NCBI GenBank assembly: GCA_016934935.1
Contig: JAFGRW010000093.1
Location: forward strand, 1-64,000
Length of the DNA stretch: 64,000 nt
Direction: 5' to 3'
Origin: Spirochaetota bacterium
GTDB lineage: Bacteria; Spirochaetota; UBA4802; JAFGJZ01
The notes beneath the pieces are model-generated. The model was not told where the DNA came from. It was given only the letters and a program-made list of their open reading frames with translations, and did not search any database. Positions 10,765 to 14,009 of this stretch are shown here, piece by piece. The position numbers and the translations under genes were made by a program. Position 1 is the first letter of the stretch. Every line of letters begins with the position of its first letter.

Positions 10765-13005
10765 TCAGATTAATACATCGCGGGGTTTGCTGCCCTGTTG
10801 TGGTCCCACATAGCCGAGCTCTTCCATGCGTTCGATTATTCTGGCAGCCCGATTGTATCCAATACTGAGTCGGCGCTGAAGATAAGAGGCCGATGCTTTT
10901 TGAGTCTCTTCAATAATTTTCATTGCCTCTACAAACATCTCATCCTGTTCTGCATCAGTTCCTTCTGTTTCGACAGTCTCCCTCTTGTCGACCTCTTCTT
11001 CGATATCTATATAGTGCGGGTTGCCGTATTTTTGAGCATGACGAACAAGATCAATTATCTCATCTTCCGAGATATAGGCTCCCTGTATGCGTACAGGAAA
11101 AGAGCTGACAGGTGACTGATAAAGCATGTCTCCTCGTCCCAATAGTGTTTCCGCTCCGTTTTGGTCAAGAATTGTGCGTGAATCAGTTTTCTGTGCAACC
11201 TGAAAAGCTATACGAGCAGGAAAGTTCGCCTTGATTATTCCTGTAATTACATCAACTGATGGACGTTGTGTTGCAAGTACAAGGTGTATGCCAACAGCAC
11301 GGGCCTTTTGAGCTATTCGAGTGATATAATTTTCGATCTCCTTGGGAGCAACCATCATCAGATCCGCCAGCTCATCTACAATAATCACGATATATGGTAA
11401 TTTCTCGCGGTCACTTTGTCCTTTGTACGATTCAACCTTTTGATTATAACGTTCGATATCCCGTGTATGAATTTCGGATAATAATCTGTAACGTCGCTCC
11501 ATCTCATAGATTGCCCATTTTAACGCCTTGGGAGCGATATCAGGTTCAGTAATTACCGGAGTCAGCTGGTGCGGAAGCCCATTATAAAGTTGCAGTTCGA
11601 CCATTTTGGGGTCTATCATAATAAACCGGACCCTGTCAGGGTCATAATTAAAAACCATGCTCGATATTAATGTATTAACACATACAGATTTTCCTGATCC
11701 TGTAGCTCCAGCTATAAGCAGGTGAGGCTGTTTTTTAAGGTCCAGCATGACTATCTTGCCCAGAATATCTTTTCCCAGACCGACTTTTAGTTGCATATCC
11801 GCTTTCTGATAGTTTGAATCGTTAAAGATGTCACCGATAGTAACAGTTTCTCGTGAACGATTTGGAATCTCGACCCCAACGGCTGATTTTCCCGGTATTG
11901 GTGCAACGATTCGTACCCGGGATGCTGCTAAAGCCATTGCTATATCGTCTGATAAATTTGAAACCCTGTTTACCTTGATGCCAGCCGCGATTTGAATCTC
12001 ATAGAGTGTAATAACTGGCCCTCTGTTAACCCTTGTTACTTTTGATTCAATACCAAAATCCTGTAAAGTTTTAACAAGAAGTACAGAGTTACGTTCAATT
12101 TCTTTTTGCCAAATGTGTGAATCTAGTTCCTGAGATACAGAAAAACAGTAAGACGGAATAATATACTCATCATTGACGTTATATGTGTGAAATTTATTGC
12201 GGTAATTATCGTATTCATCGTCGTCATCACAGGATTCAGTTCTAAGGTTTTTCGCGGACAGTTGTGATATATCTTTATCATTTTTTTCATCTACATGGAC
12301 TGTATCAACCGTAGATTCTGGTGTTTCCAATTCAGCTGGTGGCTCATTAATTGCTTTCGCTAAAGACGCGGACTGATCAATCAGAGATTCACTTTCAAGA
12401 ATATCTTTTTTATCATTGATATTATCATCCTCTGTATCGTACTCAAGATGTGTTTCTTCAGGTTGTTCACAGATCGTTTCTTTAAACTTGTCTTTATAAG
12501 TCTCGTCTTCATCAATAGTAAAACGATTTGAAGGTGCTTTGGCTATGGCGTCAAAAATGGAGGTCTCTTTTGCATTAACCGGTTGCATATTATTAACAAC
12601 TTCTATTGGCTCATTGAAAGACTGTGTATTTGAATCAAGAAGAGATTCGTCAAATAGAACGTCTTTCATGAAAATACGTTTATCGCTTAAAGGGATTTCG
12701 ATTTCGTTTATATCCATATTAAAATCAGGATCTTTTTTAAATTCATCAAGAAAGCTCCCGCTGCTTTCAAATGTTTTATCTGTAGAAAAAGGTGATGCAG
12801 TTGAAATGTGATTAAGATAATCATATGGTTGAGAATTTGATTCTACAATGGTCTCTTTTGTTATCCAGGGCAATTTGGCGTCTACATGAACCTTGATTTC
12901 GCTGTGCAAAGGTATATGAGTAAAGGAGGCCTTTTGTTCAAGTATCCGGGGTTTTTGCTCTATCGGGATACTCTTTTTTGATGAGTTTTTCAGGAAAGTG
13001 AACAT
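10765..13005 (-). CDS. ftsK: FtsK/SpoIIIE-type DNA translocase
   Basis: A 746-residue protein from the ATG at 13005, which has GAGGAG 6 nt upstream. Order: a poorly conserved acidic linker (to about 270), an alpha/beta motor with GPVITLYEIQIAAGIKVNRV, Walker A GATGSGKS (about 433-440), Walker B IVIIVDELADL (about 538-548), ATQRPSVDVITG, and a C-terminal winged-helix gamma domain (about 685-746) that reads KOPS-type sites. FtsK pumps chromosome termini at the septum and activates XerCD. Unusually, no membrane domain is in the ATG-started protein: a hydrophobic FtsK-like last helix is encoded in frame upstream (13024-13141) without a normal start codon (see findings). Last gene of dut-rnj-uppP-ftsK. 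Confidence 0.92.
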   Translation of the reverse strand: MFTFLKNSSKKSIPIEQKPRILEQKASFTHIPLHSEIKVHVDAKLPWITKETIVESNSQPYDYLNHISTASPFSTDKTFESSGSFLDEFKKDPDFNMDINEIEIPLSDKRIFMKDVLFDESLLDSNTQSFNEPIEVVNNMQPVNAKETSIFDAIAKAPSNRFTIDEDETYKDKFKETICEQPEETHLEYDTEDDNINDKKDILESESLIDQSASLAKAINEPPAELETPESTVDTVHVDEKNDKDISQLSAKNLRTESCDDDDEYDNYRNKFHTYNVNDEYIIPSYCFSVSQELDSHIWQKEIERNSVLLVKTLQDFGIESKVTRVNRGPVITLYEIQIAAGIKVNRVSNLSDDIAMALAASRVRIVAPIPGKSAVGVEIPNRSRETVTIGDIFNDSNYQKADMQLKVGLGKDILGKIVMLDLKKQPHLLIAGATGSGKSVCVNTLISSMVFNYDPDRVRFIMIDPKMVELQLYNGLPHQLTPVITEPDIAPKALKWAIYEMERRYRLLSEIHTRDIERYNQKVESYKGQSDREKLPYIVIIVDELADLMMVAPKEIENYITRIAQKARAVGIHLVLATQRPSVDVITGIIKANFPARIAFQVAQKTDSRTILDQNGAETLLGRGDMLYQSPVSSFPVRIQGAYISEDEIIDLVRHAQKYGNPHYIDIEEEVDKRETVETEGTDAEQDEMFVEAMKIIEETQKASASYLQRRLSIGYNRAARIIERMEELGYVGPQQGSKPRDVLI

Positions 13006-13169
13006 GGGAACTCCTCGGGTTTTGATTAATAAAGGTATACCTGAAAAATAGAGACATACCACACTAATGATTATCGAAAGAAACAGGATTACCCTTGAGC
13101 TTGTTATTTTTAAAAAAAATGAACCAAAATAGAGACCTATATAACCGCTTTCTTGATTTACAGACGGGA

Positions 13170-14009
13170 TTAGAAAAACATATTTACTGCTACGCCTAAA
13201 AGTCCGACCGCAATTGTATAAAAACCGAATACAGGAAAAGCAGTCTTTCTGATTATAATAAATAGAAGTCGCAAAGCCAAAAGAGCCGAAACAAAACAGG
13301 CCGCCGAACCAATACCAAGCGGAATAAAAAATGAACTATCCAGTCCTCTCGAAAAAGCTTTAACAGATTCCAGAAGGCCTGCTCCGGCAATAACGGGAAT
13401 AGACATTAAAAAAGAGAAGCGAGCAGCTTTATCTGATTCGATTCCGCGTATCATTCCTCCGCTTATTGTCATACCCGCCCGGGATATTCCAGGCAATACA
13501 GCTACTGCCTGACAGCATCCTATCAGAAACGCGGTAAAAAATCCCATCTGCTCTAATTGTCGGTCTTTTCTTTTTATCCGTTTAGTATATAATAGTATTA
13601 AACCGTTAATAATTAGTAAAATTGAAACGGGCAAAAGAAACATCAAATTGTCTTCGATATATGATGAAAAAAGAAGGCCGATGATTGCCGCCGGGATAGA
13701 GGCGATAATGATATATGTACTGATTATTAGAGAATTATCAGAATAGTTCTTTTTAAAGAGAGCGCTAACAGAATCTATTACCAGTTTTATAATGTCTTTG
13801 CGGAAAAAAACGATAACAGCTGCAAGTGAGGCTAAATGTAGAGCTACGTTTATAAAGAGCATCTGATTATTGGCAACAGAATCTATAGAGTTTTTTATCC
13901 ATGGTATTTGCTGTAAAATTACCAGATGTCCGGATGAGGATATAGGTAAAAATTCGGCGATTCCCTGTACTATACCGAGAGTGATAAAGGTGATAATAAG
14001 ATTTCTCAT
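13170..14009 (-). CDS. uppP: Undecaprenyl-diphosphate phosphatase (BacA/UppP type)
   Basis: A 279-residue integral membrane protein that dephosphorylates undecaprenyl pyrophosphate to recycle the lipid carrier for peptidoglycan. The signature GIVQGIAEFLPISSSGHL (E-x-L-P-I-S-S-S-G-H) is at the N-terminus, and PGISRAGMTISGGMIRG carries the second conserved motif with its Arg. Eight hydrophobic helices follow the family layout and the length is normal. The ATG at 14009 has AGGAG 7 nt upstream; two TTG codons before it are too close to that site. It starts 15 bp after rnj and precedes ftsK. Confidence 0.96.
   Translation of the reverse strand: MRNLIITFITLGIVQGIAEFLPISSSGHLVILQQIPWIKNSIDSVANNQMLFINVALHLASLAAVIVFFRKDIIKLVIDSVSALFKKNYSDNSLIISTYIIIASIPAAIIGLLFSSYIEDNLMFLLPVSILLIINGLILLYTKRIKRKDRQLEQMGFFTAFLIGCCQAVAVLPGISRAGMTISGGMIRGIESDKAARFSFLMSIPVIAGAGLLESVKAFSRGLDSSFFIPLGIGSAACFVSALLALRLLFIIIRKTAFPVFGFYTIAVGLLGVAVNMFF

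Follow-up and report, generated by a model that had tools for sequence, protein, structure and literature searches.

The ftsK gene in the window (the whole stretch of 64,000 nucleotides of Spirochaetota DNA analysed here) is, judged from its sequence, a truncated gene. We put the probability at roughly 0.6 that a real and recent deletion of about 421 bases lies behind this, and that the remnant of the gene is translated from the ATG at 13005 as a soluble translocase. The deletion, between the end of uppP and the codons of the fourth membrane helix, would have removed the ribosome site, the start codon and helices 1-3, and the remaining gene would be read from an ATG that was formerly internal. 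The product would be a cytosolic translocase made up of linker, motor and gamma domain, and the helix 4 codons would now form an untranslated leader. The evidence consists of a missing segment, a conserved stump of the membrane domain, an intact motor, a conserved ribosome site and the lack of a second copy in the genome assembly; from these we infer a deletion that exists in the living organism, translation from ATG 13005 and a functional soluble protein.

The genes concerned lie on the minus strand in the order RNase J, uppP, ftsK and lepB. The uppP (BacA) gene (13170-14009, minus strand; PF02673, 3.2e-71) is complete at both ends by comparison with that of the relative GH29 (below), and its stop codon occupies 13172-13170. 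The ftsK frame, which is -1 relative to uppP, runs without a stop from 13335 to 10765 (856 codons) and is thus open through the uppP stop. The earliest ATG of this frame is at 13005, 164 bases in all from the uppP stop, and is preceded by CGAGGAGTTCCC (CGAGGAG-TTCCC), in which a Shine-Dalgarno-like GAGGAG occupies 13011-13016 on the minus strand. Upstream of it, the relevant stretch holds one further usual start codon, a GTG at 13062 in the middle of a hydrophobic segment. The ftsK body (10765-13005, minus strand) comprises a variable linker, the alpha domain, the FtsK_SpoIIIE motor and the gamma domain.

The locus was compared with that of GH29 (G001, JAQIBV010000023.1), a Spirochaetes MAG and the sole genome of the same genus among those examined. 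Its ftsK is complete, with a GTG start (L031:2500), four helices and the same gene order as in the window, and the amino-terminal part of its protein matches FtsK_4TM (PF13491) at 5.7e-18. The uppP gene ends at the equivalent codon in both genomes. From the uppP stop to a glycine-rich turn ahead of helix 4 there are 444 bases in GH29 and 23 in the window (13147-13169, minus strand, the junction zone of the deletion), that is, 421 fewer. The bases absent from the window are those of the spacer, the ribosome site, the start codon and helices 1-3.

What remains of the membrane domain in the window is a stump of helix 4 codons and a short basic turn (13006-13146, minus strand), in frame and 5' of ATG 13005. 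It aligns with helix 4 of the GH29 protein, with 33 of 47 residues identical, and an alignment with 13 relatives places its beginning at the conserved glycine-rich turn. The stretch is therefore identified, by sequence likeness, as helix 4 of the membrane domain and the leftover of a lost anchor; a Pfam search with the stump returned no family at E values up to 5. These comparisons bear out much of what a sequence-only reading of this DNA had proposed. Its coordinates, frame and codons (ATG 13005, GTG 13062 and the -1 overlap) were correct wherever they were checked, its hydrophobic segment does represent the final helix of the amino-terminal domain of FtsK, and the good ribosome site that it ascribed to ATG 13005 has a duplex energy of -8.2 kcal/mol. 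The alignment of homologues and upstream DNA that it called for led to the normal start and four helices of GH29 at the same place.

The missing part of the membrane domain was sought elsewhere in the window's own genome, an assembly of 138 contigs with a completeness of 89%. The GH29 domain, a profile of 13 rows and PF13491 returned the stump or nothing, an absence that is not absolute given the completeness; with the GH29 domain as query, the stump was the only hit (E 4.2e-13, query residues 114-166 of 167).

The stump shows no sign of decay. Its hydropathy peak is 2.66 over a 19-residue window, compared with 2.0 for helix 4 of GH29, and its pN/pS against GH29 is 0.28, equal to that of uppP, even though synonymous sites are near saturation between the two genomes (pS 0.63-0.84). 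When neutral evolution was simulated at 0.05, 0.1 and 0.5 substitution per site, 38%, 17% and 0.7% of runs, respectively, still had a stump free of stops whose hydropathy peaked at 2.5 or more. The undecayed state implies that the deletion is recent relative to the split from GH29, or that it is an artefact of assembly or strain, or that the stump is still translated.

The last of these possibilities, an FtsK anchored by helix 4 alone, with one helix before the motor, and made from a near-cognate codon such as the CTG at 13086, was weighed by scoring candidate starts with a spacing-aware duplex energy against the anti-Shine-Dalgarno sequence. The open frame, the intact and more hydrophobic helix, the AAGGG that precedes CTG 13086 in the window and the seemingly constrained substitution pattern of the stump are all consistent with such a protein. 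A recent deletion accounts equally well for the constraint, however, and the starts that would retain helix 4 score poorly against the -8.2 kcal/mol of ATG 13005: CTG 13086, the best near-cognate codon, reaches -4.1, ATA 13140 reaches -1.7 and GTG 13062 has no site. An anchored form thus appears, on these energies, to lack a convincing start codon in the window, and we consider its production improbable. The ATG that corresponds to 13005 in GH29 (L031:3001) lies within the complete ftsK and scores -8.3, stronger than the -6.6 of that gene's own GTG start; in sampled GH29 DNA excluding ftsK, 2 of 702 internal ATGs reach -8. The strong site would thus already have existed within ancestral coding DNA, and the truncated gene would have inherited a ready-made start.

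The overlap of the two reading frames could also be taken to indicate programmed -1 frameshifting where uppP ends, yielding a fusion of UppP, helix 4 and FtsK, as the stop of uppP directly follows GTTTTTC and the ftsK frame is open across it. GTTTTTC, however, is not a complete slippery heptamer of the form X XXY YYZ because a G occupies a position that needs a T, the fold of the leader RNA is no better than that of shuffled sequences (z -0.29), and in GH29 uppP ends at the same codon while ftsK has its own start downstream. The slippery heptamer, stimulatory structure and conservation in relatives that mark a programmed frameshift were not found here, and such a fusion is extremely improbable. 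In GH29 a stop codon past the end of uppP closes the ftsK frame, and that genome has no equivalent of the frame segment that reaches into uppP in the window (13335 to about 13170); we read this segment as accidental and the frame overlap itself as a by-product of the deletion. Of the three origins that the sequence-only reading had offered for an anchored form, the best supported is a gene that was shortened and left a remnant; its frameshift out of uppP and its non-standard start are not supported, given the GH29 gene structure, the unremarkable leader fold and the weak CTG. A small indel that would restore the gene, which it had also raised, does not fit either, as the 421 missing bases fit no frame in the 164-base gap. 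With a start codon and three helices absent, neither a frameshift nor a small indel explains the locus.

Whatever the fate of its 5' end, the motor of the window protein is intact and under strong constraint. The FtsK body domains all score above their curated cut-offs (PF01580, 3.7e-69, 233 bits; PF17854, 1.5e-30, 105.8 bits; PF09397, 2.7e-28, 97.9 bits), and the protein is by its motor, alpha and gamma matches an FtsK/SpoIIIE translocase. The motor part is 94.9% identical to that of GH29, with a pN/pS of 0.04. The linker that adjoins it (window about 12110-13005) is highly variable, being 45.8% identical to its GH29 counterpart, with a pN/pS of 0.47. By sequence and gene order the window gene is orthologous to those of GH29 and of the anchored translocases of the E. 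coli FtsK/SpoIIIE type, from which it retains the alpha, motor and gamma domains, the linker and, as a stump, helix 4 of the 4TM domain. It differs from a membrane-anchored FtsK, which is recognized by the four-helix PF13491 domain and an ordinary start, in that this start codon and helices 1-3 are absent and the genome contains no FtsK_4TM match. Translation from ATG 13005 would likely give an FtsK of 746 residues without membrane helices, and this is the only FtsK found in the 89%-complete genome.

The second most probable reading, itself somewhat unlikely, is that misassembly or a minority strain variant accounts for the deletion and that the living population carries a complete ftsK like that of GH29. 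Several observations favor it. The assembly is in 138 contigs and 89% complete, the stump has not decayed, and 38 of the 40 motor-bearing genomes of the order keep the 4TM domain. Set against these, the junction sits inside a 72 kb contig that is collinear with GH29 and on which ftsK is the only gene truncated in this way. Where the window and GH29 are collinear (window 1590-43359), 51 pairs of open reading frames were listed, and a start more than 60 residues into the GH29 partner was seen in ftsK and two antisense shadow frames alone, which suggests an isolated event rather than a contig that is generally error-ridden. The assembly contains neither another fragment of the membrane domain nor a second near-identical copy of the junction DNA, so that no repeat that could have collapsed was seen. 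A second genome, described below, has the same kind of loss. The deletion is seen in a single MAG, the one genome of its species, which leaves some probability to an artefact of assembly or strain.

Across the order, the FtsK motor is found in 40 of 46 genomes and PF13491 in 38. Helix readings leave out loci L012 and L019, which are cut by contig ends; the amino-terminal part of G023 is taken from L060 and that of G028 was read separately, and for loci L008, L021, L025, L026 and L028, some of them without the anchor motif, helices were assigned from other readings. Exactly two genomes, both of them assemblies, have a motor without the membrane domain: the window genome (G000) and G018 (SZUA-423). 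In G018 (L034, QKCL01000084.1), the RNase J stop is at 2075, and the ftsK frame, open from 2134, begins straight away with linker codons and encodes no helix. G042, a member of that family, carries a four-helix ftsK after RNase J. The losses in the window and in G018 appear to be independent, as the families differ and so do the neighboring upstream genes, and G018 suggests itself as a parallel case in support of a deletion. The first usual in-frame start in this part of G018 (L034:2073-2260) is a GTG that lies where the linker begins and has a weak ribosome site. Neither the motor nor the 4TM domain was found in six of the 46 genomes (G012, G030, G031, G033, G034 and G040), which could reflect assembly gaps or real loss; the listed completeness is 90% or more for four of these, and three are members of a single genus (g11).

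In FtsK, the membrane domain connects DNA pumping with the division machinery, and E. coli requires this domain for viability. If the sole FtsK of this organism is indeed a cytosolic motor, nature would offer a case in which these two roles are separated and no second, anchored translocase is present; should the deletion be merely an assembly gap, the locus is a warning on gene starts in MAGs. A related architecture is known from Bacillus subtilis, where SftA, according to PMC5357621, is a translocase with a gamma domain that lacks a membrane-spanning domain and works beside the membrane-anchored SpoIIIE. The predicted window protein resembles SftA in combining translocase and gamma domain with no membrane domain, a likeness that holds if translation begins at ATG 13005, a start suggested by the strength of its ribosome site. 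It differs in that SftA coexists with an anchored paralogue, whereas the soluble form in the window is the only FtsK found in a genome that is 89% complete. Gene order and identity place the window protein within the local FtsK line, where it would have arisen by 5' truncation, and we do not file it as an SftA. Beyond this source, a literature search returned no paper on the present finding.

Some bacterial genes, such as that of ClpB, have an internal second start that gives an isoform without the amino-terminal domain. The ftsK of GH29 likewise has a strong ribosome site and an ATG right after the membrane domain (AGAGGAG-TTCAC-ATG at L031:2977-3003, immediately after helix 4), and may be a gene with two products, a likeness of sequence only. 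In a broader version of this idea, ftsK in the genus would be a two-start gene, giving an anchored form and also, by initiation at the ATG that follows helix 4, a soluble one; the species of the window would have deleted the anchored form and kept a soluble FtsK as its only one, G018 would have been converted independently, and membrane coupling would be dispensable in these spirochaetes. We regard this as doubtful. Comparable internal sites occur in some other relatives, so that the idea is put forward tentatively: in 14 of 36 rows from outside the family, the 260 codons after the last helix include at least one internal ATG or GTG that scores -6.5 or stronger, and a site at -8 or better lies at most 25 residues from the last helix in three of the 36 (L011, L013 and L016). 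For the sister genus (L032 and L033), one internal ATG considered as a sign of a family-wide internal start scored -8.2 at first and -5.7 once its spacing of 11 was counted; since, moreover, -6 is reached by 17 of the 253 internal ATGs in that DNA, the site was dropped as support. The strong internal site of GH29 may also be a coincidence of coding, its bases being codons for R-G-V.
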